This document shows positions 2,669 to 39,500 of a stretch of DNA of 64,000 nt, one piece after another (within the stretch, counting starts at the first letter, position 1; every line of letters begins with the position of its first letter). The stretch is from Sphaerolaimus hirsutus (Eukaryota; Nematoda; Chromadorea; Monhysterida; Sphaerolaimidae). The notes beneath the pieces are model-generated. The model saw nothing but the letters and a program-made list of their open reading frames with translations, made no database searches and was not told where the DNA came from. The translations under genes were made by a program, and so were the position numbers. The stretch covers positions 8,184,001-8,248,000 of the forward strand of contig OZ038454.1 in the NCBI GenBank assembly GCA_964036195.1, read 5' to 3'.

Positions 2669-3570
2669 AACTCGACTCTGAACACAGCAAAAGCCTAGAT
2701 ATAGACTGCCGCAAATTTTTTTTGAAATAAACAAATCATTGCACCTACCAATCGAGCTGGCTCTGCACCATGTCCAAGGACCACTCACATGAATTTTTCT
2801 TGACAACAATGACAGCATGTGAAAAAGTTCCACTTGTCAAATGAAAGTTCCATATTTGATTGAAAATGTGGCGAAGTATATATGTATATATATATATATC
2901 AGTTACTTGCACAGACATGCCAAATAGCAAATAATTTCTTCATATTGCGCTCAAGTTATACTTTTGAAATTATCATAGATTGTCAAAGTCCTGACAACCA
3001 ATTACAATTTTTTTGAGAAATTTGAACAGTCAAATTGCCTGGGTGTGATGACTAGCAACTTTTTGTGCTGTAATTGTCATGGACATGCAAGTTCAACCGT
3101 CACACATCTTTATTTGTCATTATTAGTGATGCAAACCTGCCATCACACAGGGCAAAACCTGTCTAACAACATTGTTCTTATTGCAAAAATGTTGGTTATG
3201 ACATAAAATTTCTGTCTTCACAAAAATCCATGGTTCTTGAATGCCATGTGATGTGAAATGTAGCATTCAGATAAAATTTGTCAAGCATCAGGTTAATAAA
3301 ATGTAAAATTCCTGATAAAATGCAAAAAAAGCTACAGAGCATTTTACATTTCACCTGAATCCTGGCGAATTTTCCTGGCATTTCTTTCATGCCATTTTCA
3401 GGGTGTGCATACTGAGAAAATGGGACAGGCATAATTTCTGCTACAAACAGTTGGGTTGCTGAGGGTCTGGCACCAGACCCAATTTTTTCGAGTCCGCCAG
3501 CAAACACTAATTCGGGTTTTCGACGGGTCGGTTCGGGTTGGTTTCGAAAGTGTAAGACAGGCCAATTGCG

Positions 3571-10599: not shown

Positions 10600-11101
10600 T
10601 GTTACGGCCGCGTAGTTGCGGTCGTTGATATTTACTTGGTGGGGGTTGATTTGTAGAAGCGGCGGCCCTAATTTCACTCTTTTTAAGTGATCGAGCAAAT
10701 GCCAGGTAGAAACAAGCCAAGTCCAACTTTCAAATGACTTCCGGCGCGTTTATTTAGCGATTTCGGTAGGCATTTTAATAGAAAATCGGGGGCGAAAATA
10801 GGTAGATTTTAGGGGAAAATAACGAGTCAAAAATACGAAAACATTGACTGCCAGCCGATGGAAAAAGTCGGCTGGCGATGGAAAGAAAAGGGGGCACATC
10901 TCAAAAGCCTAAAAAAACACACACAATAGAAAGAGATGCCCTTGTGCGCGGGCACTTATTTAGGTCACACGCAAAGTCGCAACGCTACGCGGCGCGTGTG
11001 AAACATAAGCGAGGGGGGCATGAAACATGTATTTTGAACCTACAGTAAGAATTGAACAAAAATATACCTAAAACAAATGGCGCCGTTACCGCGGCATAAC
11101 A
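10600..11101 (-). repeat. 3' LTR (distal)
   Basis: 502 bp, reading TGTTACGG to GCATAACA on the + strand, identical to the LTR at 15296-15797 except the fourth base. TG...CA ends are usual for LTRs. The flank CAAG at 10596-10599 is the target duplication. It contains a stem from CCAGCCGA and TCGGCTGG around 10850-10875. Confidence 0.92.
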
Positions 11102-11110
11102 GCCCCTCCC
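11102..11110 (-). promoter_or_regulatory. Polypurine tract
   Basis: On the - strand GGGAGGGGC lies directly before the 3' LTR, the expected position for the primer of plus-strand DNA synthesis. Confidence 0.7.
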
Positions 11111-11374
11111 ATGACAACGGTTACACTACCTACAAAAGAGACACTAGTGGAACTGGAAGTCAGACAAAAGCTTACATAAAGGAGCTACCAAAAAGTCAAC
11201 CATGTAAAATTCAGTGGAATTCTAAGTTACCCAAATGGAACAGCAAGCATTCAAATTAAAAGCATAATCCAGATACACAAATGGATCAGATTGCAGTGTA
11301 ATTATAAAAAAACAATTTGAAAGGTACATTTTCAAAATGGACACATGCACACCCTACAATCATGGCGGCACTCT

Positions 11375-12163
11375 TTAGCCTGGATTCCACTGGGTGCTGG
11401 AGCTAAGCCTTGCCTTGTGCTTGCGGCACATGCAGGGCTCGCCCCGAAAGTTGGTCACCAGTTGACCATCGGATTTTCCAGGGTTCACCAACACGAACTC
11501 GGCATGTGGTGAAACACGTTTGGCAGAATTGCGAAAACATTTGGAGGCAGACTTTTTGCGTGGGGGCCTGCCGTAGACCTTGCTGCCCTTGGCGCGTGGC
11601 AGTGTAGCGGGCTTCGACGAGTGCGATTTCCGAATGCCAGTAATTGGCGCCAATTCACGATGTGATAGTTTAGTGACCACCAATTGTGTTAGCATTTCCC
11701 CCTTAGTCGGAGACCGGCAGGCGCGAATCGATTCACCCATGGCCCTGGGCGTGAAATTGGCTTCGAGTCGCTGGAGCTCAGAAATGGCTGTGCGATTCAT
11801 TTTTAATGTGCCGTAGAGTGCCTCGTGGCCAAAAAGAAGCGGGCTCGATGTGCGCGGGAAGTGTGGTTTTCGTTTAACCACAGCCCAGATGTCTGCCGAT
11901 TGCTGTTGTCCACCGGGTGTGGTATGCAGCAAATGCATTTTGTATAACGCCAAGTGATGCCCCGGAATTGGCTCGCCGGCAGTCCCCAAACCAGAATCAG
12001 GGTATGGCCAGTACTTTGCCTTTTCTGTGCTGGCATTGCACTGTGCGCGTTTCCACACATCCTCGAGCAGATGCTCCTCGATGATGATCCCCTCCTCAGC
12101 CACTATCAAGTGTGCCTGTGAGCGTGCAGCCCATGAAGTCCACCTTGGCCAGTGGGCGATCAC
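11375..12163 (-). CDS. Second ORF of the LTR element, function unknown
   Basis: 262 codons, overlapping the 3' end of the Gag ORF by 68 bp and shifted +1 relative to it. Expression could use a +1 frameshift or a separate start. I recognise no protease, RT or integrase motif. The C-terminal third is rich in Lys/Arg (KGSKVYGRPPRKKSASK) and could bind nucleic acid. It occupies the place where pol normally begins. Alternatively it is the decayed remainder of pol read in a fortuitous open frame. About 270 bp of non-coding sequence follow before the polypurine tract. Confidence 0.5.
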   Translation of the reverse strand: MIAHWPRWTSWAARSQAHLIVAEEGIIIEEHLLEDVWKRAQCNASTEKAKYWPYPDSGLGTAGEPIPGHHLALYKMHLLHTTPGGQQQSADIWAVVKRKPHFPRTSSPLLFGHEALYGTLKMNRTAISELQRLEANFTPRAMGESIRACRSPTKGEMLTQLVVTKLSHRELAPITGIRKSHSSKPATLPRAKGSKVYGRPPRKKSASKCFRNSAKRVSPHAEFVLVNPGKSDGQLVTNFRGEPCMCRKHKARLSSSTQWNPG

Positions 12164-13985
12164 AGTGGGCGTGTCGCACAGTTGACGGGTTCATGGTGCA
12201 ACCCATCTGCTTGTGAGCTGCGTAGCCGCTAGGGAACCACGTTTCAAAATCATCGGGCTCGGGCTCAGAATCGGATGGCGGAGTAGAAACATTTTTAGTC
12301 ATTTTAGTAGATGGATTACCACTAGGTTCGGTGTCAGATTCAGGGGCACTATAGATGTGCTCATCCACTTTCAGATTGAGTTTGCCACACTCAATGCGCA
12401 TATTTTTCTGAGCATCGTGCTCAGTCTTGCCGGCCTTACGCAGGAAGTCTCGGGCTCGTTCCGCCCGATCCAGTCGATAGGCAGGAGAATCAGGATTCAA
12501 ATAACATTTTGCCGGCTCATGCGGCATGGGTGCACGATGCATGAAATAGGTGCACCATGGACCCTGATGTGTCGTCGGGTCAAATTTTGACTGCCTTTCC
12601 CAGCCATCGTTTTGACTGCCAGATCGACCCGAGGCATTCATGGATGCAGCCACAGCTGGTGGGTCATTGGACCATCCAGCGTTTCCACCGTTGGACGGAT
12701 TCGGTGCACGATTAGCATTACGCTGCTCATTTTGTTCGGCCCGATAATGCAGATTTTCCTCACGCGTGATGTCGAGGCGTCCAACGACATCCGCCAGTTC
12801 GATCTGACCATCTTGCCATTTCTCGCGCCACGGATACCAAAGAGACATTGGCAGCATTCCTCCAATCTCGAGGAACAATTTATCGCCAATCATTTTCTCG
12901 CGCTGTGAGTCGTCAATCTGCTCACTAATATAGTGGAATGTGCTGCACAATCTGCTGTACAGGGTGGCCACAGAATCAGTAGGTTTAGCCGAAATTCGAT
13001 ACCACTCAGCGACGGAATGCGCCTTGCGGTCCACTCGAAAAACACGAGCCAATTTGTCGAGAACATAAAGCACGGTATTGCGCTTATCCAGGCGAATAGA
13101 AATATAGTGCGCCTGTGCGCTTCCCTTCAAACATTGCTGGAAAACATTGGTCCAGAACAAATGTTGATATGGTGGGGGAACGTTCAGAGCCTGTAGCGCC
13201 ACATTGTGAAGCCAAAATTTAAAGGGCCCCGATGGCGCGCTCGAATCCCCATTGAATGGTGTCTGCTTGCTAGCGACAGTGGCTACATGGCCGCCACTCA
13301 TGCGATCACTGGATGAAATTTGTGCCAGTGCATCCACGAGTGACGGAAAACCATCGGCCGGTGCCATGACGTATTTGTCAACGTAGGCGGCAATTTGGCC
13401 GATCAGGCCACCCGGGGCAGACGAAATCGCCTGCAATCTACTTTCAGTCGAATCCACCGGCAGGTTGGTGGATGACATTGACGGGGTGCTCGATGAAGCT
13501 TGATTCGGCACACCCGATGCAGGCCCCAAGTTTGGGCTTGCACTTGGATTAGGTGGCACAATGGGTGCCTGTGTCGCTTGCACAGCCGATAGTTGAGTGA
13601 CTTGCGCCCCAAGCTGCTGGATAGCTGCCAAAAGATCAGCCACAACAGGCATGGGAAGTGCCGCCACAGGTGGCTGGGCCGCTGGAGTGGAAGGCAGCGC
13701 AATGCCGCTATTATCACCCGCAGCAGGCACCTCACCGTCAGGGTCCAGCGCCAACTCCAGCGAGTCGTCAGGGTCAGTGAAATATAGGTCCATGCAGCGC
13801 CATACTTGGCGGACCAATGCCACATTGCTCAAACGCGGCAGATCACTGATTGTGGGCCATTCATCATTGTTGTCATCACGATATTGCAGGATTGTGGTCA
13901 GCAATTGCATCAGCTTTTGCCGCTGGCCACGATCGATCCATGCCTCAACAATGGGCTCCAACTCAGGGCGCTTGTATTGCGACAT
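12096..13985 (-). CDS. Gag-like polyprotein ending at a truncated protease
   Basis: 629 codons. Residues 1-85 are an N-terminal domain. About 95-235 is Pro/Ala/Ser-rich linker. About 244-420 is a helical capsid-like region beginning FNGDSS and resembling the retrotransposon Gag core (WLHNVALQAL, YSRLCSTFHYISEQI). Near 478-494 a C-X4-H-X5-H-X4-C pattern could replace the usual CCHC zinc knuckle. The last residues, TLTGTLDSG, look like the start of an aspartic protease, whose active site is D-S/T-G, but a stop follows at once. Particle assembly and RNA packaging are inferred from family knowledge. The frame is fully open, which fits a young element. Confidence 0.8.
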   Translation of the reverse strand: MSQYKRPELEPIVEAWIDRGQRQKLMQLLTTILQYRDDNNDEWPTISDLPRLSNVALVRQVWRCMDLYFTDPDDSLELALDPDGEVPAAGDNSGIALPSTPAAQPPVAALPMPVVADLLAAIQQLGAQVTQLSAVQATQAPIVPPNPSASPNLGPASGVPNQASSSTPSMSSTNLPVDSTESRLQAISSAPGGLIGQIAAYVDKYVMAPADGFPSLVDALAQISSSDRMSGGHVATVASKQTPFNGDSSAPSGPFKFWLHNVALQALNVPPPYQHLFWTNVFQQCLKGSAQAHYISIRLDKRNTVLYVLDKLARVFRVDRKAHSVAEWYRISAKPTDSVATLYSRLCSTFHYISEQIDDSQREKMIGDKLFLEIGGMLPMSLWYPWREKWQDGQIELADVVGRLDITREENLHYRAEQNEQRNANRAPNPSNGGNAGWSNDPPAVAASMNASGRSGSQNDGWERQSKFDPTTHQGPWCTYFMHRAPMPHEPAKCYLNPDSPAYRLDRAERARDFLRKAGKTEHDAQKNMRIECGKLNLKVDEHIYSAPESDTEPSGNPSTKMTKNVSTPPSDSEPEPDDFETWFPSGYAAHKQMGCTMNPSTVRHAHCDRPLAKVDFMGCTLTGTLDSG

Positions 13986-13999
13986 TTTCCCGATTGCAA

Positions 14000-14631
14000 A
14001 GCCACTAAATCAGCACACACGAAATTTGCAAAAAATGGTGCTGGAGTGGCTGAATGCAGCAGAATGGCACCGACAATGTAGTGCGAATTCCCTCTAACTG
14101 TGCCTGCAACATTCCAGTGCAAAAATTGGCACAGGAGGGACTCAGTGCAGATAGGCACTGAGTAGATGGTGCGGTGGCGGTAGGCCAATGTCGCACCAAT
14201 TGCACTTGACAAAATATTTCCCAAGTGCAAACACGTGTCACAGCAGATGCGGCACACCAAGTACGCTGCAGCGATTGGCCACTGCAGCGCCAAACGTACT
14301 GCACGTGCAGCGTCAGCTGCACCAGTGCAGAAACAACGCGGTAGTGTCTGCGCGCCACCGGGCAGCAGGGCAATAGAGCGCCCCTTTGTTTAGCACTGCG
14401 TCGCTGCAAAAGCGGCGCAGTGATTCACCAAGTGGCGGCGCCGACGGCCCAGACGCGCCTGAATGCTGCGCGGGAATGTCGACGCTGCACGAAATTGCAG
14501 CGGCGCCCGATGTGCAGCGCGGGCGGAAAATTCGGCTCCGCTGAAAAGTGGTGCCGACCAAAAATGGCACAGCCGACCAGTTCGGCTGTGCAAATCAGGA
14601 GGGCCCAGCGCCCTTTTGAAATCGATTTTGA
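14000..14631. other. Rest of the retroelement leader, also hairpin-rich
   Basis: No ORF of the element starts here. Additional stems are visible: GCACAGCCGA with TTCGGCTGTGC around 14568-14592, GCGGA with TCCGC near 14522-14540, GCTGC with GCAGC near 14483-14500, and CTGCACGTGCAG near 14300. GC-rich and probably strongly folded as RNA. Confidence 0.5.
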
Positions 14632-15190
14632 ATCAGCCCCAGTGGCTGATCGCACCGCGTCGCGTTGCCGCGCAGCCCCAGTGGCTGATAAGTGGTGAAG
14701 ATGGACAGGGCGCCACCGAAATGCGATGGCGGTGCGGCCGCGCAGCTCCAGTGGCTGTTTTGCGGTCGAAAACAATTTTCGAAATTCAATCAGCCCCAGT
14801 GGCTTGATCGATGTTGGAAAACCGGCGCGCAGCGTTGTCGCTATGCCGCTAGCCCCAGTGGCAAAGTGGCACAAAAAAACGATTTCGATCAGCCCCAGTG
14901 GCTGATCGAAACAACCGCTTGGCCGCGCAGCCCCAGTGGCTGATAAGCGGCCAGCCGGGCGGAGGCGTTGCGACGCCGCGTCGCGGGAGGTGCGTCGCGG
15001 CGCGTCGATAAAATGTCGCTGGCCCCAGTGGCTCAGCGACAGCGAAAAACGTTGATTTCCGATCAGCCCCAGTGGCTGATCGGAACGTGAAGCGTCGCGA
15101 CTGCGCGCCGCGAGTTGACGCAACGTCGCTGGCCCCAATGGCACAGCGACTCGAAATGAAATGAAGTCGATCAGCCCCAGTGGCTGATCG
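14632..15190. repeat. Array of eleven hairpins with conserved GCCCCAGTGGC core
   Basis: The 11-mer GCC-CCAGT-GGC (3-bp stem, 5-nt loop) occurs with its centre near 14641, 14680, 14750, 14798, 14857, 14897, 14935, 15027, 15071, 15137 and 15179. Two copies are point variants (GCTCCAGTGGC, GCCCCAATGGC). Most are extended by outer stems that differ in sequence yet still pair: TTTCGATCA with TGATCGAAA, TGTCGCT with AGCGACA, TGGCCGC with GCGGCCA, TGCCGC with GTGGCA. Spacing is irregular (about 35-90 bp). It lies wholly in the leader between PBS and gag. A packaging, dimerisation or translation-control RNA is the likely role, by analogy with retroviral leaders. Confidence 0.85.
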
Positions 15191-15260
15191 AAAACGATAT
15201 CTGCGCGGCCAACGTGCCGCGACAGCCAGGCGATCAGGAAAGCCTGGGATCGATAAAGCG

Positions 15261-15282
15261 GGGAGCGAAATGAATCGCTCCC
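15261..15282. promoter_or_regulatory. Perfect hairpin overlapping the primer-binding site
   Basis: GGGAGCGA, loop AATGAA, TCGCTCCC. Its distal arm covers the first bases of the PBS at 15278-15295, so primer tRNA annealing would compete with the stem. A second stem, CCAGGC with GCCTGG, lies at about 15226-15247. Confidence 0.65.
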
Positions 15283-15295
15283 AGTACAGTCACCA
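15278..15295 (-). promoter_or_regulatory. Primer-binding site
   Basis: On the + strand the 18 bases CTCCCAGTACAGTCACCA abut the LTR and end in CCA, as a tRNA 3' end does. On the - strand they form TGGTGACTG..., directly downstream of the 5' LTR. I cannot name the tRNA without a search. Confidence 0.75.
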
Positions 15296-15797
15296 TGTCA
15301 CGGCCGCGTAGTTGCGGTCGTTGATATTTACTTGGTGGGGGTTGATTTGTAGAAGCGGCGGCCCTAATTTCACTCTTTTTAAGTGATCGAGCAAATGCCA
15401 GGTAGAAACAAGCCAAGTCCAACTTTCAAATGACTTCCGGCGCGTTTATTTAGCGATTTCGGTAGGCATTTTAATAGAAAATCGGGGGCGAAAATAGGTA
15501 GATTTTAGGGGAAAATAACGAGTCAAAAATACGAAAACATTGACTGCCAGCCGATGGAAAAAGTCGGCTGGCGATGGAAAGAAAAGGGGGCACATCTCAA
15601 AAGCCTAAAAAAACACACACAATAGAAAGAGATGCCCTTGTGCGCGGGCACTTATTTAGGTCACACGCAAAGTCGCAACGCTACGCGGCGCGTGTGAAAC
15701 ATAAGCGAGGGGGGCATGAAACATGTATTTTGAACCTACAGTAAGAATTGAACAAAAATATACCTAAAACAAATGGCGCCGTTACCGCGGCATAACA
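15296..15797 (-). repeat. 5' LTR (proximal)
   Basis: 502 bp, TGTCACGG to GCATAACA, with the same length and sequence as 10600-11101 apart from one C/T. Followed by the target duplication CAAG at 15798-15801. As the 5' LTR of a - strand element it should carry the promoter. Confidence 0.92.
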
Positions 15798-17704: not shown

Positions 17705-20700
17705 GTGGGATTTTTTGGGGTGTTTTGTAGTGGGTTTTTCCTTTCGTTGGTCGTTCTTCTTAGCATTCCGCCAAGTTGGGTGTCGTTTTTGTAGTGGCGT
17801 GTTATGGCGTTTTCCGACTGCGGAGGTCACGATATTCTGTTGTGTGAGGTCAAAGTGAATTACATGTATCTAATCTATTAGCATTATTCGAAGCATAATT
17901 ATTTGTCGTTTCTGTGTAGTAGCTATGGCAACCTCATTGAAACTGACTGCCCTAAAAGGACTGATCGGACTGATAGAATTTATTGGACTAGGTGGTGTGA
18001 GCTCCGTCCCCATGCCACTCGTGGCACGCCCCAGGGGCATAGCGGATTTTGGGGTTAGCATTTTGGGGGGGGGGGGGGGGTCAGCCGGTCAGCACGCGTT
18101 AATAACTCGGGAACCGCTTGGCGAAAAATGTTGAAATTTGGATATGTTATGGTTTCAGGTCGGGGCTAGTTACAAGTCCGACGATTTTTTTCTACGACCC
18201 CCCCCCCTATCTCCGGTCTGGGGGGTCGTAGAAAAAAATCGTTGGACTTGTAACTAGCCCCGACCTGAAACCATAACATATCCGAATTTCAACATTTTTC
18301 GCCAAGCGGTTCCCGAGTTATTAACGCGTGCTGACCGGCTGACCCCCCCCCCAAAATGCTAACCCCAAAATCCGCTATGCCCAGGGGTCTCCAAGATTTT
18401 GGCTTTGGCGGGGGTTTTATAGATAGCAAATCGCTCCTCCGGTGGGATAGATAGCTGAAAATTTTTCTGGGGAGGCTCGAGGGGGCAAATAAGGCTTTTT
18501 CAAATTATAGAAAGCAGAAAGGGTGGAAAAAATAGCTTAAAATGGCTAACAATAGGTATATAACGATTTTTATAGTCGTAAACTGCGATTTTGAATGTGA
18601 AAAACTATGAAAAGGTACGTAATCAGGGATTTTGGGCGAAAATTGGAGCTCAATTTTGTCAGAAATCGATTAAGATAGATGTGTAGCTCGGCTATTTTTT
18701 TGGGGGGAGGGGGTCAGTGGGTATGGGGATAAGCCAAAATTTTAGCCTCCCCCCGGAGACCCCTGGCACGCCCATACCCTTTTTTCCAACTATTTTGTTG
18801 ATTACAACGTCTAAAATCTTATGCACAATCGTCCCCCCCCATTCACAGTCGACGGGCGGCTTGGACAGCGCGGTGCCGCCGTCGCCGGCCTCGTCGGACG
18901 CGCAGCAGGCGAACGACAACCGCCAAGCGCATCGCTCCGGCCAATCGCCGGCGCGCTCTAATGCATTCTCTAGTCGGTTTAGAATTAGATTTAGAACTTG
19001 TGGGTTTTGTCGGGATTTTTCAATTGTTAGAGCCGCTTAGGGCGTCGAAAGATAGGTGGACGGAAATAGGATTTGTTTAGCTGTCAGATTCTTGAAGGGT
19101 AAAAAGTTTTGTCTTTGTAAAAACGTAAACGAAAAACTGAGACGCCCTCTTGATCCCGGCCATGACACCTAAATATCCACCCTGGGGTTTCCAATGGGGG
19201 CTGCCCACCCCCAAATCGACCAGCTATGTATCTATCCCAGTGGCCGCTCTGCTATCTATCTACCCCCAGACAAAATTAGGGGCTACAACCCCTGAGACCC
19301 CCTCCTAAGCTCTCAGCTATTATCCATGTAGAGCAAATTTTGAGCGATTTCTCCTTCCCCAATATTTCTTCAAAATCGTTTAATTTTGCTCCATTTTGCC
19401 AATTTTCCCTTTCAAAATCGCTGTTTGCGGCTATTTTTAACCTACTTTCCCCCTTTCCGCCATCCTTACCTCGAAAAAGCCCAAATACATAAATATATCC
19501 CCCCCAGCAAATACGGGTGTAGCGGCGGCTGGGCGACCTGCCGCCGACGCGGCGGCGGCTGCAGCGGCGGCCGATTCCATGCTGCTGTTCGCCTTGGACG
19601 AGGAGGAGTACTGCGGCGAGCAGGAGAACCAGCCCAACTCGGGCGACAGCGGCGCGCCGCAGCGGCACACGGGTAGCCACGAGCACAAGGATGGAGAGCT
19701 TACTGATGGTTCGGTTTTGGTGGATTTTTTTGTACTTTTTTGGTGGGAGGGGGGTGAAAAATGAAGTGTTTTTGTGCTGTTCTGATGTTTTTTTTAAGAT
19801 GTTTCAGATTGTTCTGGGTAGGGTTGGAAAAAAACGTTTTTTTTAACTCGATGTTTTTTTTAAAAAAAACGTTTTTTTTATTTAAAAAACGTTTTTTTTT
19901 AAAAGCTCCCAGATATGACCTAGTGTCAACATATATAAGTATATCAGACACTGGCAATACTCTGTGATGTTAAATATGACCATATAATGGCTGTGGAGCC
20001 ATGGGATAGCATTATAAGTGGTGATTTGTGTCAAAAATATCCATTTTTCGTCGACATATTGTTTGTATATCGCCTTATAGTAGAATGTTCATGACTTCAG
20101 GTAAAGTTTGGCACGGAATGGTGATCAAACAAGGTTATAAAAGGAGGTTGTTACTTTGGGAGTGAAGTTACACACTGTGGAGGTACATGGAAGCACATTA
20201 CCTCAATTTTCTATATTACAGCAACATATGTCGGCTTATTCACCCATGGTACCACATAGAAATGGATGTTTTGATACTAAAAATGCAACAAAACCAATGA
20301 AAACAACCACCAATGTCAATTTGTGTGTGAAATTGCGCACTTGCGCGCAAAAATTTTGCAAAATACCTAGTGCTTAGTACTAAAAATTAAAAAAAAAACA
20401 TTTCGGACGTCATGTTAAAAAAAAAAAACGTTTAAAAAAAAACATCGGCCAACCCTAGTTCTGGGTATGATTGTCAGGTACCGTTATAATGATCAAGACT
20501 ACGGGAATCCCTACATAACGCCTGCCTCGCTCTCGGTAAAGTTTTACGTCTATCTATCCTTAAGTATGATCGATTTACTATCTAAACTATCTTAACCCCC
20601 TGCTTTGTAAAAATTCTCGCGACCCCTGTCTGGTGGCGTAAGGGATGAGATAATCACATCACATCATGAGAAAATTTATCTAATTAGTAAATTAATGTGC

Positions 20701-23700
20701 GTGGTCGATTCAGAGTGGGTAAGAGTTTCAAAAATCGAAAAACGTTTTTATTAAAAAAACCGTTTAAAAAAGTTGTTGTTTTTAAAAAACGGTCGGGTTA
20801 TTTTCACCTTCAAAAGTTTCATAGTAAATATTTTTTGTGTTTGACTTTTTTATACAATGTATGCTATTTTATAGAATGTATTTTTTTGTGGAAACAAGCC
20901 TCATCGCCTGGCAAACACCATTTCAATTCAATCTCACTCCCAGCGTATTTTAAAACTTAAATGTGTTGAAAACTTTTTCGAGTTTCAACCCCCACTGTGT
21001 TTGGTGAAATTTTTTTGTAAAAAGTCTAACTGCACTTGGTGCTATTACATTACGAAACGATGGCACTTTGGGTTGCCATCTTGCAACACGCAATGGCAAA
21101 ATGATGTATTTCTGTGTACACAAATATTTATACTAGTACATAGTACACATGTGAGGAAAGCGTGTGGACTTATCGCACCGCCCGTGCGCCGAATTTCTTT
21201 TGCAAACATTCTAGCGCCGCGCTGGCGCACTATACAATCCGTACAGCGTCCGTAAATAATCCACCAGTGGTCTCTATAGGCCGCGGGAAGGGCACTCTGT
21301 CAATTCTCAAATGTTTGCCAATGTCGCGCCGCTGCGATATCGAATGCGGTCATTCTCCGGCCATGCAGGACCACCTTTGTACTGGAACACTCGTTTCCGA
21401 TAACGGCGCGTTTCCGCGACGCACACACTCACTAGCATAGTACACCCGGCGTGCACGCCCCCCCCCCCCCCCCCCGCTGAGCCCCTGTTTACTATTTACA
21501 CAACGTTTGAGGCTCACTATTAGTGCCTGTGCAGAATCGATCTTTATGCTGGCGTAAAAGAAAGATTGAGGCGCCCAATTATAAGTCGACAAGCCCAAAA
21601 TATGAAAATTTGTGTTAGGCCCGGAAACGTCATCTTTGGGTACTCCCACACATTTTTCATAATTTTCTCATAAAAATTTGACCTCGCATGCCCCTATACG
21701 ATAAAAATGCAAAAATTTGGGTAACAAGTCGATAAGTCCACTTAGTTTTGCGCTAAAAGTCGAGAAGTCCATCCTTTGTCTCATTTCTTGTTGGGGAAAA
21801 AGGAAGTTATGTGACACGTCCACTGTGGACACCTATTTCTAAAAGTCGACAAAAGTCGTGGACTTGTCAACTTTTAGAATTAGACGCCTCAATTATATTC
21901 TCGAAAAGCTTCTGAATAGTGAATACCTTGTCATGATTCGCTGAGCCACGATTTCGCATATTATATTTTGCACTTGCAAACGTATTTCGTAAGGCCGCGT
22001 CTAGGGAGGGCGCCATCGCGGCTGGGCGGCCTAGCAGCGGCAGATTTGCTGCCGCCGCGCCGCATTCAATCGCTGCCGCCGCGGCGGCCGAGAAAGATGG
22101 ATTTCGACTTATGAGGCTCGGACAACACGCAACTTATGTTCCATTTATTTGCACAGCGCTGCCCGTCTGTTTATTGTTTATGTTCCCTCTGCGCCGGAGC
22201 GAAATTGCATAAGCTTTCATTGAAATTGAATGGAAACTGGACTGTCGTGCGGGGGGGGGGGGCATGCTGACAGTTTTAATGCGTTTCTAAAAAGTTCTTA
22301 TTGTGATGGAATATACACTTTTTTTCGTATTTAGCGCCCCCGGAAATTATCGCTAAGGGCGATATTTTATGTTGTTGTGTAAGTAAGTGCTTGACGGTCT
22401 CTGCAAACATTTTCTAGATGTTTTTTTTATCTCCATAGATCCATAGATCTCCATTATGGTCAGTGATATCGAGCAAACGCAACGGTCTCCAATGGGGGAG
22501 GGGAGGTAGCTCCCCAAATCGGCCTAATATCTGTTTATCCCGGAGGGATTTGCTATCTATCCATAGGGTGGCAGAATTTACCTTACCGTACCGCAAGTTT
22601 GGAAAATTTACCGTACCGTTTACCGCAAAGCCGTAACGTCCCTGAGCACACGGAAACCATTTCAATACGATAATGGCCCTGCGCACACTAGTTTCCATTC
22701 CACGCTTAATTTGGAAAACTCATAAATGAGCTTTAAACGTGTTTGAGTTTTCCACAATGAGTCATTTTTAATCTCCGTCAACTGTAGTTGACGGGCACCT
22801 CATTGTAGAAAACTCAAATGCGTTCTAAGCTGATTTGTGAGTTTACCAAATTTCGTGTGAAAACTAGTGTGCGCAGGCACAAAAACACAACAAGCCGTCA
22901 TAATAAAACTAATTCAATCATGAAAAAAATACACCCCCACACAAACCAACACAAAAATCACACCACCCCTCACCCACTCAGACAGCGGCACCTACGACGA
23001 CCCGCTGCTAACAATGGCGGGCGTGCGGCAACAGCAGGCGGCCGAGCCGCGCCGGGTGCAGCGGCACGCCGCCCAGCCAAACTTTGGCGCGCCGCGGCTG
23101 CAGCAACAGCAGAGGGCGCGGCACGGGTCGGGCGCCGGCATGCTCGTGTCCAAGTACGGCACCTCGCTGCCCGTCACCATTCCGGGAAAGTATTGGCCGC
23201 CTGAGGACGCTTTTGATAGCCATCCGGGTAGTAATTCGGATAAGGATAGCCCGAATGAGAATGATGTGAGATTTGGGAGGTTTTGGGTGTTTGTTTCGTA
23301 TGGGAATATCAGCGAGACCAGAGTTATGTGTCCTTCACACTAGTTGACATCACAAATTTGTGTTAATTCGATGTCAACTAAAACATAACAACATTTTGAA
23401 GCACCACAGAAACAATGAAAATTGATTATATATCAGATAGGAAAGTTGAAATCGACATAATTCACAAAAATTTTGTTGACGCCAATCCAGTTGACATCCA
23501 GTGTGTGGCGCAAAACTACCGTTTCAACAAATCTTAAACATGTGTCGGGCAAGCTCGTACATTTTCACGATCGGTCGCGAAATTACCCTTTCGGAAAACG
23601 TAAAAAAGTACTCACCCAAATCCCCCTCCCCCCTCAGTTGGCTTTCCCTCCACACCGGCCGCCGAAAAACCACGAAGAACTAGAAGCGGTCGCTCGTACT

Positions 23701-25528
23701 GTCCAAGCCGCCGACGACCCTGAACGGCTGTTCGGTGAGCGGCCGCGCCGCCGCCGCTACAAAACCGGTACAGGGTGCGTGCAGCGGCAGCCGGCGCCGG
23801 TGGTCGTTCATGCCGCTGGCGTCGTTCCTGCCGCCGCCGTGAACCGGCCCAGGGCGCGCCACTACGCTGGCAATCAGCCAAATGTGACTGGTAGGATCGA
23901 CCTCGCTGTGAATGCTCAGGTTTGCTTTTTTTGGGGGGAGGGGGTAGATTTTTTGGAAGAAATTCACATCTTATGGTTCTATGGTTCCACGTATGTTTGG
24001 CCGATGTTTTTTTTAAACGTTTTTTATTTAAAAAAAACGTTGTTTTTTTAAAAAAAAACATGACGTCCGAAATGTTTAAAAAAAAAAACATCGACCGAAA
24101 TTTTTAGTACTAAGCACTAGGCAGGGGTATCTTGAATTTTGACCCTCCGAGTGGTTGGATAGATAGCAAATCGCTCCTCCGGAGGGATAGATAGCTGACA
24201 AATTTTCTGGGGGGGGGTTTGGGGGGGGGTTGTGGTGGTTCGATATATAGGCTTTTTCGGGGCATAGAAGGAAGAAAAGGGAGAAAAATCGCTAAAAGTA
24301 GGTGTAAAATAGCTCAAAATGGGTATACAAGAGCATATAGTACTTAAAATAGCTGAAAATAGGCAGTTAGACGCATGAACCAGTGATTTTGGAGGTGAAA
24401 ATCTATATATAGGTATGAAAAATAGCGATTTTGAGCAAAAATTGGGGTATAGTTTCTGAAAAATCGCTCCAGATAGGTAGATAGCTGAGCGATTTGGGGG
24501 GGGGGGTTTAGGGGGTAGTAGCCCAAAATTTTGCCTCCGGGATAGATAGATAGCTGAGCGGCCTCCGGGATAGATAGATAGCTGGGCGGTTTGGGGGGGG
24601 GTAACCCCCCCCCCCCAACCCCCCCCATTCGAGACCCCTGGCACTAGGTATTTTGCAAAATTTTTGCGCGCAAGCGCGCAATTTCACACACAAATTGACA
24701 TTGGTGGTTGTTTTCATTTGTTTTGTGGCATTTTTAGTATCAAAGTATCCATTTATATATGCTACCATGGGTTAATAAGCTGTCATATGTTGCTGTAGTA
24801 TATAATATTGAGGTAATGTGCTTCCGATGTACCTCCACAGTGTGTAACTTCACTCCCAAAGTAACAACCTCCCTTTTATAACCTTGTTTCATCACTATTC
24901 CGTGCCAAACTTTACCTGAAGTCACGAACATTCGACTATAAGGCGATATACGAATGTATCGACAAAAAATGGATATTTTTGACACAAATACCCACTTATA
25001 ATGCTATCCCATGGCTCAACAGCCATTATATGGTCATATATAACATCACAGAGTATTGCCACTGCCTGATATACCTATATATGTTGACACAAGGTCATAT
25101 CTGGGAGCTTTTAAAAAAAACGTTTTTTATTAATAAAAAAACGTTTTTTATTTAAAAAAACATCGAGTTAAAAAAAAACGTTTTTTTCCTACCCTAGTTC
25201 CACGGCAAGCCGAAAATCGTTTTTTTAACGGGTCGTTTAAGAAACGTTTCCATCACTGTGTGGGTGGGGTTTGGCTCGTCGTTATGAAAACTTTAACAAT
25301 AACGTTATGAAAACTTTAACAAATAAAAGTTTCAGTTACATAAAATGCACTAAACTGGAAACTGGCACAATGTGTCTTCAATTTTGGAAGTAAGTGAAGA
25401 AAACGCTGAAAACAAATGTAAATATAAATAATCAATAACTTAAACCTTTGCAGGGTGCGCACAAAGTCGTCAGGCCGGTGATAACGCTGCCCATGGCGGT
25501 CGCCAATGATGTAAACGATGTGCGCTAA
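17539..25528 (+). CDS. Gene A: unidentified multi-exon protein, 3' part
   Basis: Splice-consistent exons: 17539-17704, 18849-18976, 19508-19708, 22982-23265, 23638-23919, 25454-25528 (TAA). The first incoming phase is 2, so more exons lie upstream, not found. All junctions agree in phase except 18976/19508, which fits only if the donor is the GT after position 18971. The product is mostly disordered: Ser/Ala/Gly- and Gln-rich stretches (LLPQQQQ), an Ala run, then an acidic patch (ALDEEEYCGEQEN) leading to SGTYDDPLLTMAG and SKYGTSLPVTIPGKYWPPED, the part most likely conserved. It ends KVVRPVITLPMAVANDVNDVR. I do not recognise the family. The GC-rich exons contrast sharply with the repeat-filled introns. 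Confidence 0.6.
18032..18765 (-). mobile_element. hAT-like family C copy, interrupted at its end by element P
   Basis: CAGGGG ends with the 8-bp duplication GCACGCCC at 18024-18031 and 18766-18773. The body (18382-18765) has the family C pattern of GGGATAGATAGCTGA-type stretches and long G runs. Palindromic element P inserted six bases inside its left end. Lies in an intron of gene A. Confidence 0.85.
18038..18379. mobile_element. Palindromic element P
   Basis: Arms of about 150 bp are near-perfect reverse complements, outer ends CATAGCGGATTTTGGGG and CCCCAAAATCCGCTATG, flanked by the 8-bp duplication CCCAGGGG (18030-18037, 18380-18387). CA...TG ends and 8 bp fit hAT. Inner poly-G/poly-C runs flank the centre. 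Non-coding. Confidence 0.85.
18849..18976 (+). CDS. Gene A exon (STGGLDSAVPPSPASSD)
   Basis: Acceptor CATTCACAG, phase 0 in. Donor TCG|GTTTAG at 18976 is phase 2. The alternative donor TCTA|GTCGGT at 18971 is phase 1 and is the one that keeps the next exon in frame. Low-complexity Ser/Pro/Gln/Asn sequence. Confidence 0.5.
19185..19507 (+). mobile_element. Truncated family C fragment ending at a splice acceptor
   Basis: Contains CAGCTATNTATCTATCCC, then CCATTTTGCCAATTTT-like C interior and a tail ATATATCCCCCCCAG. The right terminus of the element is missing. Its C-run and AG coincide with the acceptor of the next gene A exon. Confidence 0.6.
19508..19708 (+). CDS. Gene A exon with poly-Ala and acidic patch
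   Basis: Frame chosen because it stays open and gives MLLFALDEEEYCGEQEN followed by QPNSGDSG. The competing frame hits a stop near the end. Phase 1 in, phase 1 out (GATG|GTTCGG), matching the next exon. Confidence 0.55.
19819..20457 (+). mobile_element. hAT-like family D, complete copy
   Basis: 639 bp, ends TAGGGTTGG and CCAACCCTA, target duplication GTTCTGGG on both sides (19811-19818, 20458-20465). Subterminal arms are runs of AAAACG/CGTTTTTT. The core has GGAGCCATGGGATAGCATT and a GCGCACTTGCGCGCAAA foldback. No transposase. In a gene A intron. Confidence 0.9.
20466..21564. other. Gene A intron sequence, no exon seen
   Basis: A D-family remnant (AAAACGTTTTT and its complement) is at about 20715-20800. 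A poly-C tract of about 19 bases is at 21460-21478. Short ORFs at 21001-21440 show no domain or splice support. Confidence 0.4.
21565..21892. mobile_element. MITE with TTGAGGCG ends
   Basis: Imperfect inverted arms: TTGAGGCGCCCAATTATAAG at the left and the complement of AATTAGACGCCTCAA at the right, each followed inward by GTCGACAAG/CTTGTCAAC. About 330 bp, no coding capacity. Confidence 0.6.
21990..22672. other. Gene A intron: small GC-rich patch and C remnant
   Basis: A GCC/GCG-rich patch at about 22005-22090 is not linked to any splice-consistent exon. At about 22470-22580 a shortened family C fragment is visible (GGTCTCCAATGGGGG to CGGAGGGATTTGCTATC). Confidence 0.4.
22673..22882. mobile_element. 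T-family MITE, copy 2
   Basis: Ends GGCCCTGCGCACACTAG and CTAGTGTGCGCAGGCAC. Inside, GAAAACTCATAAATGAGCTT and its complement form long arms around GTCAACTGTAGTTGAC. About 210 bp, non-coding, in a gene A intron. Confidence 0.75.
22982..23265 (+). CDS. Gene A exon with SGTYDDPLL and YGTSLPVTIPGKYW
   Basis: Acceptor CCCACTCAG, phase 1 in. Donor AATGAT|GTGAGA, phase 0 out. 95 codons. A Gln/Arg-rich middle (RLQQQQRARHG) separates the N-terminal DDPLLTMAG from LVSKYGTSLPVTIPGKYW, which looks structured and is the best query for a homology search. Confidence 0.65.
23330..23511. mobile_element. T-family MITE, GTTGACA type
   Basis: Ends CACACTAGTTGACATC and CAGTTGACATCCAGTGTGTGG, about 180 bp, non-coding. 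Uses GTTGACA after CACTAGTT where other copies have TTTTCAC. Confidence 0.6.
23638..23919 (+). CDS. Gene A exon (NHEELEAVARTVQAADDPERLF)
   Basis: Acceptor after CCCTCCCCCCTCAG, donor GCTCAG|GTTTGC, phase 0 both sides, 94 codons. A short helical stretch (about residues 11-33) precedes a basic run RPRRRRYK and a Val/Ala-rich tail ending RIDLAVNAQ. Confidence 0.6.
23992..25196 (-). mobile_element. hAT-like family D copy hosting a C element
   Basis: Ends TATGTTTGGCCGATG and CCTACCCTA with duplication GTTCCACG at 23984-23991 and 25197-25204. The D core is intact in inverse orientation, split by the C element at 24122-24640. Confidence 0.88.
24122..24640 (-). mobile_element. hAT-like family C copy nested in D
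   Basis: 519 bp, CAGGGGTATC ... GAGACCCCTG, duplication GCACTAGG at 24114-24121 and 24641-24648. Interior has GGGATAGATAGATAGCTG repeats and long G runs. Non-coding. Confidence 0.92.
25454..25528 (+). CDS. Gene A last exon (candidate)
   Basis: Acceptor CCTTTGCAG, phase 0, GAHKVVRPVITLPMAVANDVNDVR then TAA. Alternative: a donor AATGAT|GTAAAC at 25513 joining an exon 25626-25712 (GGGARRAGKCLYCHMG..., TAG). Only transcript data can decide. Confidence 0.5.
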   Translation, partial: GAHKVVRPVITLPMAVANDVNDVR

Positions 25529-36500: not shown

Positions 36501-39500
36501 TTAATCCGCGACCTAGAATGGCCAGAGGACACTCTAGAATACAAACGAGAGCGTTTTTTGCGTCGTCTGGACGGCGAGCGCCAGAGTCACAATTCGCGAC
36601 TGCAGAGCAGACAGCCGAGTTTGCCCACTCTGGTGTGGGACGCGGCCAGACTCAGGCGCGCCGTTTCCATGGTTGAGATACCCACTTATTTGAGGTGTGT
36701 AATTTTGATATAGTTGTTTTTGGTTAGATTCAAGGCATGTTATGGTCATGCATTACGGTCGCGTAAGAAGCTTCAAACTACCGTGTGTTCTTCAATAAAT
36801 CGCCGGTGACTTATCTTTTGTGAGACAATTGAAGAGTTTCATTCCAAATGTGCACATATCCACATTTTTCAAAATCGCGTTTTAAAGTTTGGCAGTGGCC
36901 CGACAGCGCCATGTTTGGGCGACAAAGCTTGCCCCGCACTTTTCAGATACCTTGAACATTTGTCTACATTTTTCTATTCCACAAATTTTGTCGGCCGGCA
37001 AATATTTTGGGAGTTATGTCATATCTTGGAAAACATCCAAAATAGGGAGTAAATCCGAATATTTGCAATTCAAAGTGAAATAAATGCTAAACTATGCATC
37101 ACGGAGCAAATCTGCCATTAAAAAGCTCATGTCGAAAAGTACCTCGACCTAAATTTTCAGATCTATATATACACACATTTTTGATATATAGTGCAAAATA
37201 GATTTGGAAATTCACGTTAGGGATGGCACGTGTGTTTTTTTAACCATCTTCTTTAAAAAAAAGACGCATGGAAACCGTTTTTTTGAAGAACAGCAGCCAA
37301 AATTTTTAGTACTAAGCACTAGGTATTTTGCAATTTTTTTGCGCGCAAGCGCGCAATTTCACATACACATTACCATTGGTGGTTGTTTTCATTGGTTTTG
37401 AGGCATTTTTAGTGTAAAAGCTTGCATTTGTTCATGCTATTGTGTAATAATAAGCCGTGATATGTTAGTGTAGTACATAATATCCAGTCAATGTGCTCCC
37501 ACATACTTCTACATTGTGAAAAATAACTGTCAATGTATTAGCCTTTTCTTATAACCTTATTAAGCAGGGGTCTCCAAGATTTTGGCCCTCGCGGGGGCTG
37601 GATAGTTAGCAAATCGCTCGGTTTAAAATGGCTAAAAACAGGCATATAACCATGCATATAGCCGGAGAGCACGATTTTGAAGGTGAAAAACTATAAAAAG
37701 GTGCGAAAATTGGTGATTTTTAGCGAAAATTGGGGCAAAATTTCTCAAAAACCACTCCAGATAGATAGATAGCTGAGCGATTTGGGGGGGGGTCTTTGGG
37801 GGTAGTAGCCAAAAATTTTGCCTCCGGATAGATAGATAGCTGAGCAGCCTCGGGGATAGATAGATAGATAGCTGGCGGATTTTGGGGGGGGGCCCAGCAC
37901 CCCCCTAGGAGACCCCTGTTATTAAGCACTATTCCATGCAAAACTTGACTTGAAGTCACGAACATTCGACAAATGGAGATAAGCGTAACAAGTCAACAAA
38001 AATGGGTATTTTTGACAGAAATTACCACTTATAATGCTATCCCATGGCTCCACAGCTATTCTATGGCTATATTTAACATCACAGAATACTGATATACCTG
38101 TATACGTTGACCCATAACTAGGGTGTCAAAAAAATTTTTTTATAGAAAACGGAAAGGTAAATTTTTTTCACTTTAGGGAAAACTGAAAACGGAAAAGTAA
38201 AAAAAAAATTTCTGCCGGAAAACGGAAAGGTAAAAAAATTTCACTCAGCGGAAAACGGAAAACGGAAAGGTAAAAAAAATTTTCGGCTGGAAAACGGAAA
38301 AATGAAATGCTGGAAAACGGACAGCAAAATTTTCACGGAAACAGAAAAAAATAAAGTGAAATTAGCACGGTAATAGACAAATTTGCAGAAGGAAAACCTG
38401 CATGCAGGTTTGCCTGTTTGGCTTTGATTGTGGTAGCTGTACGTTCTGCAACTATGGATCATGCCTGTAACTTCACTTGTAGTTCAAGCTTAACTGAACC
38501 AACAAAAAATCACCAAAAAGTAGCCATAGTGGCCATAGGAAAGGAAACACTACAACAATTTCACAGTCTAGAAGCAGTGGGAATCACTGATGACCCCTAT
38601 GCAATTGATGACAACATTGCAGAGGAGATGATAATAAATAGCATAAAATTCAACAACAACAACAAACGATACTATTTTGACTGGTCGTATAAAGAGAGTA
38701 TCAGTGACCTGCCCACGGGAAAAGCAGAAGCCTTGGTGCAGTTTAAATCACTGATAAGAAGATTCAACAAAGATCCAAACTTATTTGAACAATACCGGAA
38801 AGTTTTGGACGACCAACTAGAAAAGGGAATAATTGAGATCTGTGACGACAAAACAGACAACAAGGGGATTCATTACCTGCCACACCAGCCAGTAATCACG
38901 CCGGGCAAATCGACATCATGCAGAATCGTGTACAATGGGTTGGCAGGTAAGCCCAGTTTCAACGAGTGCCTTTTTAGAGGACCAATTACAACACCATTAG
39001 CACTGGGCCTACTCCTGAGGTTCAGGGCAGGCAATCTAGCATTAATTGCCGATATTGAAAAGGCATTTTTGCAAATAGGATTGCATGACCAAGCTAGAGA
39101 CTACACACAATTTTTTTGGCTGAAAGATGCCTCAAAACCAGTAACTGAAAATAACTTAATGGTACTTCATTTTAAACACATACTGTTTGGACTTGTCTGC
39201 AGCCCAGCAATTTTGGGAGCAGTCATAAAATACCATTTAAATGTGACAATAAACAACATGAATGAATATGAAGAAAATGAAGGGGAATGAAATCAGTTGG
39301 CGATGATAATAAACAACATTTACATCGATAACTTCATCATGAGTGTCACAAATGAAGTTGAAGCTTTAGAACTATATTACAAAGTCTAAGCTTTATTTTA
39401 CCAATGTTCTATGAACATGATGGAATGGCTGTCAAACTCCAGATCAGTCATGAATGAAATAGCAGAAAACGACAGGAGTCCAAAGGTGAATAAAATTGTC

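Follow-up and report, generated by a model that had tools for sequence, protein, structure and literature searches.

What would a retrotransposon gain from a ladder of small hairpins, nearly all with the same five-base loop, between its primer-binding site (PBS) and gag? The question is raised by a 64,000-nucleotide stretch of the nematode Sphaerolaimus hirsutus (assembly GCA_964036195.1, contig OZ038454.1, positions 8,184,001 to 8,248,000 of the forward strand), referred to here as the window, whose coordinates are used throughout. The element concerned is a Ty3/gypsy-type long terminal repeat (LTR) retrotransposon at 10600-15797 on the minus strand. A sequence-only reading of the window had described eleven recurrences of an 11-mer between the PBS and gag of a retrotransposon leader, a location with which the placement of the PBS, gag and LTRs agrees. 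On the plus strand the 11-mer GCCCCAGTGGC is indeed found eleven times between 14636 and 15184, in nine exact copies and two with one mismatch; the sole further match with at most one mismatch in the 64 kb lies at 18028, outside the element, and a total of 12 such matches was reached by none of 100 shuffles (mean 0.74). Within the element all cores with at most one mismatch are confined to the leader, from PBS to gag, at core-to-core distances of 38-92, slightly shifted from the 35-90 bp first given. The orientation of the motif had to be reversed: GCC-CCAGT-GGC, as it was originally written, is antisense, since the LTRs, PBS and gag place the element on the minus strand, and in RNA sense the core GCCACUGGGGC is GCC-ACUGG-GGC, a 3-bp stem closing the pentaloop ACUGG.

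The array is a series of tandem hairpins in which several families of stem carry a single pentaloop, R-Y-UGG, usually ACUGG; in two of these families (types I and II) pairing is kept. The type I stem is GAUCA/UGAUC, fully paired and often with one fixed A.C; type II is GUCGCUG/CAGCGAC with a one-base bulge; type III is the type II stem with a UU/U internal loop; type IV is GGCCGC with a UUAU/C internal loop; and rarer stems include UCUACCUG/CAGGUAGA and GGCGCC. In the window, all on the minus strand, type I is represented by hairpins 1 (15167-15191), 3 (15048-15096), 6 (14877-14920) and 11 (14623-14657), type II by hairpins 2 (15125-15150) and 4 (15003-15051), type III by hairpin 7 (14833-14881) and type IV by hairpin 5 (14915-14958) and the core of hairpin 10 (14673-14687), while hairpin 8 (14774-14823) has a GAUCA stem with a bulged A and was scored as type II. 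The loop is ACUGG in all of these apart from hairpin 2, where it is AUUGG. When the cores were folded as 51-nt pieces the GCC-N5-GGC loop formed in 10 of the 11, with at least seven outer pairs in nine and two in hairpin 10; the altered core 9 (14745-14755, one mismatch) did not form the usual loop when folded alone. Two extra hairpins follow on the same strand, AGGGC-GCUGG-GCCCU at 14600-14614, with the loop GCUGG on another stem, and GCACAGCCGA-ACUGG-UCGGCUGUGC at 14567-14591, with the same loop on an unrelated 10-bp stem. Rfam gave no match at gathering score in the window. A coding role for the array was considered and rejected; its 290-codon open stretch is not conserved, and in the other 39 copies sense frames that overlap the array reach a maximum of 67 to 237 codons.

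Those copies were recovered by a DNA search of the genome (348 Mb, 762 contigs) with the array as query, in which 96 array matches resolved into 40 places including the window, a lower bound as 40 of 112 candidates were scored. The sequence-only reading would have been undermined by other copies that lacked the motif. It is present in all 39 other leaders, each with 5-13 cores (at most one mismatch), although their recovery with the array itself as query means that they do not amount to an unbiased census of gag-bearing copies. Cores total 395 with those of the window, 351 of them exact. A gag match lies downstream of the array in 40 of 40 copies, at an identity to the window Gag of ~60% to 97% over the aligned stretches (64-82% among 13 copies in one alignment), and the array is present both in members with long gag-pol frames and in members without. 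One locus (L043) has an array leader and has lost most of gag, the match being limited to residues 515-629; a second copy across its junction, which an amplified parasite would be expected to have, was not found among 40 scored of 142 candidates. In IMG/VR, 21 stretches with two exact cores were detected, and viral kin of the array were not established by them; their core spacing is in multiples of three and their stems are unshared or unformed (two hits folded per locus), for which reason they are read as probable coding repeats, a few of which fold well.

That the stems vary yet still pair, as first proposed, holds for types I and II beyond both shuffled and slid partners, and does not extend to covariation in types III and IV. 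Among 222 unique flank pairs the core loop formed in 215 and at least five outer pairs in 213, and the mean energy of -16.3 kcal/mol with the own partner compares with -11.4 kcal/mol after swapping (30 shuffles, standard deviation of the mean 0.22), a swap cost of ~4.9 kcal/mol. The paired fraction was 0.829 in type I and 0.889 in type II, as against 0.643 and 0.692 in shuffles, and changes on both sides numbered 84 and 46, as against 29 and 16. Any of these four values was reached by none of 2000 shuffles, and extra pair types were reached by 39 (type I) and 2 (type II) of 2000, figures that are drawn from related sequences and are not probabilities. Slid partners gave 0.18-0.45 for type I and 0.25-0.75 for type II, compared with 0.85 and 0.92 in register; the best slide gave 0.80 vs 0.92 for type III and 0.54 vs 0.74 for type IV. 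The hairpin types were themselves derived from these data, by best pairing, before their pairs were counted, a circularity for which shuffles and slides control only partly. An outlying core of one copy (L025, oriented position 3557) contributes one of the 396 hairpins used in the stem-family, flank-pair energy, covariation, slide and private/shared-variant analyses, and was dropped from the extra-hairpin, divergence, majority-rule, frame, free-loop, core-count and neighbor-order analyses. The opposing expectation, that stems would covary no more than duplication of a single hairpin predicts, does not describe types I and II; types III and IV are uninformative in this respect, and duplication does contribute to the array. 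At the fourth pair outside the core, type I hairpins carry a fixed A.C mismatch at several array positions in subfamilies B-F.

The second half of the original description, a fixed loop on these variable stems, is borne out in five of six subfamilies. Among 274 free-loop GCC-N5-GGC hairpins with four or more outer pairs, 250 have ACTGG, 14 ATTGG and 5 GCTGG, and five other loops occur once each. Pairwise divergence was compared in six subfamily alignments that, as for the majority-rule stems and the mutation spectrum below, comprise 38 of the 40 copies (without L031 and L042). For loop, inner stem, outer stem and spacer in turn it was 0/0.6/4.1/4.0% in subfamily A, 1.4/1.2/3.3/4.2% in B, 4.1/2.6/10.0/15.1% in C, 4.1/2.7/5.4/7.6% in D, 3.3/0/1.5/2.0% in E and 6.8/5.1/15.3/26.7% in F, a core having been accepted if one or both members of the pair matched it with no more than one mismatch, a rule that favors low core divergence. 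The loop thereby changes more slowly than the spacer in five subfamilies (~2-4 times less, or not at all), and the inner stem does so in all six. Outside the 11-mer, RCTGG occupies pentaloop hairpins in 7 of 64 contexts, compared with 172 of 18872 for all pentamers, an enrichment that was spotted before it was tested, is mostly due to GCTGG (5/30, with ACTGG 2/34) and includes related contexts among the seven. The 10-bp-stem hairpin of 14567-14591 recurs in six copies, and the pentamer AGGCA is enriched in hairpins too (6/15).

The order of hairpins along the array is also far from random. With types II and III pooled, neighbors of the same stem family make up 24 of 203 in 23 distinct orders, compared with 71 ± 6 after shuffling, and none of 5000 shuffles gave a number as low. 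Because neighbors alternate between stem families, the unit of duplication was probably a pair of hairpins; in a second, candidate reading the alternation may reflect avoidance of mispairing between neighbors. Near-identical repeats are found inside the arrays of some copies, such as L014 and L020.

The remainder of the element is conventional in layout. In RNA sense the 5′ LTR (15296-15797, minus strand) is 99.8% identical to the 3′ LTR (10600-11101, minus strand), the 502-bp pair differing by one mismatch; the LTR ends are TG...CA, and a CAAG target-site duplication, taken from the printed sequence, flanks the element. The single difference and the CAAG flanks indicate that the insertion is young. 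By eye, a purine run GGGAGGGG lies immediately upstream of the 3′ LTR in RNA sense (plus-strand 11102-11112). The PBS region TGGTGACTGTACTGGGAG (15278-15295, minus strand) adjoins the LTR end, as it does in 39 of 40 copies, of which 32 match it exactly and 7 at all but two positions, and of its 18 nt only the first ~12 look tRNA-derived. It exists in two versions, suggestive of two primer tRNAs or isodecoders: TGGTGACTGTAC and, in 7 of 40 copies as well as several distant elements, TGGTGATCGTAC. The gag frame (minus strand, start 13985, end 12096 at a protease-like LDSG) encodes a finger-like C-x4-H-x5-H-x4-C motif at residues 478-494 and is followed, after a break, by a second open frame at 11375-12163 (minus strand). 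Pfam gave no match for these two frames, and reverse transcriptase, RNase H and integrase were not found in them. Near-identical gag segments in kin are open for ~875 codons, by comparison with which the window gag is broken, and in copies ~82% identical to it the frame is open for up to 2492 codons; three of the copies with an array (L041, L044 and L046) have gag frames of 2411-2492 codons, and downstream of L046 (piece L089) one long open frame encodes reverse transcriptase, RNase H and integrase in Ty3/gypsy order. As its own frame is broken and those of its kin are long, the window copy is a non-autonomous, broken member of a family in which some members have long gag-pol frames. Relatives of Gag were sought in a set of 5.8 billion proteins, where none of 7993 scored candidates reached E ≤ 0.001, and a PDB search with Gag returned matches at chance level only.

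More distant relatives indicate how far the array extends. Twenty loci were examined of 40 candidates, with a Gag segment 47-57% identical (34-54% over longer alignments). The exact 11-mer is absent from all 20, the single match with one mismatch being in L088. The 12-nt part of the PBS is common to 17 of the 20, and the bases that follow differ between families. The three nearest (L069-L071), here termed the sister family, share the same 18-nt PBS region and have 1-3 look-alike hairpins with an outer stem, a UU bulge, a short inner stem and a pentaloop that starts with A. Their outer stem, unlike those of the array, is nearly constant, and it is the loop that varies (ACACG, ACCGG, AUUGA, ACGAA and once ACUGG). 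The C-x4-H-x5-H-x4-C motif is kept in the four relatives sampled, two of which belong to the sister family and two of which are more distant, and the sister family is richer in arginine ahead of it. This pattern fits, and does not prove, a loop that changes along with its reader. Sister-family leaders also contain a GCGTTGG repeat 5-7 times, frequently at a hairpin's 3′ foot. Upstream of gag in five further distant elements (L081-L085) there are 47-55 strong 40-nt hairpin windows, compared with 39 in the window element, and four of these five elements have the pentaloop CATCC two or three times.

It is tentatively proposed, as a serious candidate that we would stop short of calling probable, that the array is a multivalent structural cis-element whose sense-RNA loops are read by a protein, likeliest Gag, for genome selection. 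The hairpins would work in the genomic RNA, where the UGG exposed in each loop would be read by a protein, most likely the Gag of the same element acting through its conserved finger motif. The 5-13 loops would then let Gag select the correct RNA, and assemble on it, with high avidity; the array might also keep genomic RNA from translation. Gag binding is putative here, and retroviral packaging signals offer one of the closest parallels. These signals likewise lie in the 5′ leader, in the structure between PBS and gag, and their exposed guanosines are bound by the zinc knuckles of nucleocapsid (NC), in GGAG/GGUG hairpin loops of human immunodeficiency virus type 1 (HIV-1) and in UCUG, exposed on dimerization, of Moloney murine leukemia virus (MoMuLV; PMC7599994). 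The retroviral psi, however, consists of a few distinct elements, whereas the array repeats one loop 5-13 times on changing stems. Among LTR retrotransposons, the finger of Ty3 Gag3 is required for packaging; the packaging sequences of Ty1 and Ty3 are not precisely defined, and no array comparable to that found here is described in the part of PMC4974528 consulted. Short loop motifs on variable stem-loops are also known from satellite tobacco necrosis virus (AxxA loops), where, however, the signals are genome-wide and contested in vivo (PMC6475782); the present array is confined to the leader and has a nearly fixed pentaloop. No such array or packaging-hairpin leader was found in the titles and abstract openings of the open-licence literature searched. 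We regard the array as a variant of structured retroelement leaders, and there is a fair chance that it is more. A further-reaching version, possible though doubtful, would make it a modular ladder, variable in copy number, of one five-base ligand, in which alternating stems limit mispairing or recombination, avidity for Gag depends on how many loops there are, and loops have diverged from one Gag lineage to another.

Several observations weigh against selection of the RNA by Gag. In HIV-1, replacement of the GGAG loop affected packaging little, and MoMuLV NC has no significant affinity for isolated hairpins (PMC7599994). Distant elements have the same finger motif without the loop, and the AlphaFold model of Gag (mean predicted local distance difference test score 38) is too poor for use. 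Types III and IV show few changes and no covariation above shuffles, the outer stems of subfamily A diverge as fast as its spacers, the loop of subfamily E (4 copies) is at 3.3% not below its spacer at 2.0%, and the RCTGG enrichment outside the core is subject to the qualifications given above. Nor do the data favor the RNA sense as the strand on which the hairpins act. Majority-rule sense stems contain 5 G.U and 10 A.C, plus 8 A.C at the fixed type I position, and in whole-leader folds of 13 of the 40 copies mean loop closure is 0.79 in antisense vs 0.63 in sense, with 108 of 128 and 85 of 128 loops, respectively, closed above 0.5.

From these last figures it could be argued that the structure acts in antisense, in minus-strand complementary DNA (cDNA) during reverse transcription or in an antisense transcript. 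A.C in a sense stem is G.U or G.T in antisense, and its excess over G.U in majority-rule stems, its retention at one position by a type I subtype in subfamilies B-F and the more frequent closing of loops in antisense whole-leader folds all point in that direction; the within-group mutation spectrum (C>T 1.9%, G>A 1.4%) does not account for the excess. With type I position 4 set apart, stem variants shared by at least two copies likewise comprise 15 G.U and 29 A.C. The counts are small and not independent, however, and private variants run the other way (G.U 40, A.C 31); mean hairpin energies are nearly equal in the two senses (-16.3 sense, -16.5 antisense), and we know of no role for such hairpins in cDNA. 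An antisense role is accordingly rated as rather improbable, and sense RNA is kept as the likelier substrate because that is the molecule the element must select. A host RNA-binding protein might instead read the element RNA, or the array might serve translation, stability or localization and not packaging; we consider this unlikely, if somewhat less so than action in antisense. Structured leader sites often serve translational control, and the position upstream of gag and the resemblance of CUGG to the Smaug/Vts1 loop would both suit such a role, but there is no positive evidence for any candidate host protein. The Smaug recognition element, a CUGG-containing loop on a non-specific stem, was tried and rejected, since CNGG must open the loop at its 5′ end after a paired base (PMC4053848), whereas in the array an unpaired A or G precedes CUGG and 0 of 274 free-loop hairpins start the loop with C.

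About as unlikely as a host RNA-binding reader is an insulator- or enhancer-like array of DNA-level sites bound by a chromatin or transcription factor of the host. The strongest analogue is the Drosophila gypsy insulator, which occupies 340 bp of the 5′ untranslated region of the gypsy element with 12 clustered Su(Hw) sites, in the same place and of similar number and length (PMC2374998). A nearly fixed core (351 of 395 exact) and strand tests without RNA-sense preference would both be expected of duplex sites. Those of gypsy have AT-rich flanks and a shared consensus, and the part of PMC2374998 available makes no mention of variable stems that pair; by our reading they need no pairing flanks. 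The array departs from this, the flanks of types I and II being paired and covarying, whereas a duplex site requires no flanks that change together on both sides, and the loop recurs on stems without the GCC/GGC core. That the array has no function, a palindromic unit having been duplicated in tandem and kept perfect by template switching, appears very unlikely. Duplication of a two-hairpin unit would produce the alternating neighbors, and the near-identical repeats of L014 and L020 are of the kind it would leave; such a process does not explain why, relative to spacers, loops have diverged less in all subfamilies except E and inner stems in every subfamily, why at least five cores are kept in 39 of 39 array-recovered copies, or why the loop recurs on other stems. 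The least credible proposal, to which hardly any weight is given, is capture of the primer tRNA by the loops: the 18-nt PBS region contains ACTGGG (hexamer chance ~0.3%), so that the loops would pair with the tRNA T-stem, and G.U pairing would accommodate the variants ATTGG and GCTGG (19 of 20 loop transitions). The sister family, however, has the same 18 nt and yet variable loops, and TGGGAG is probably not tRNA-derived, because the PBS shared by 17 of 20 distant elements is 12 nt long and later bases differ.

Elsewhere in the window, an inverted repeat at 18071-18352 has 133-bp arms that are 98% complementary and 16 bp apart, and 19828-25186 contains several long inverted arm pairs, 81-94% complementary and ~4.3-5.2 kb apart, which may represent a foldback element or a pair of copies in inverted orientation. 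A 290-amino-acid open frame at 38418-39290 on the plus strand has no Pfam match and resembles by eye a fragment of a BEL/Pao-type reverse transcriptase.

How elements of the Ty1/Ty3 type choose their own RNA is poorly defined (PMC4974528), and a short, readily synthesized ligand repeated on interchangeable stems makes that question directly testable. The natural series, from arrays of 5 to 13 hairpins to the sister family with its other loops, could show how packaging specificity changes as Gag diverges.
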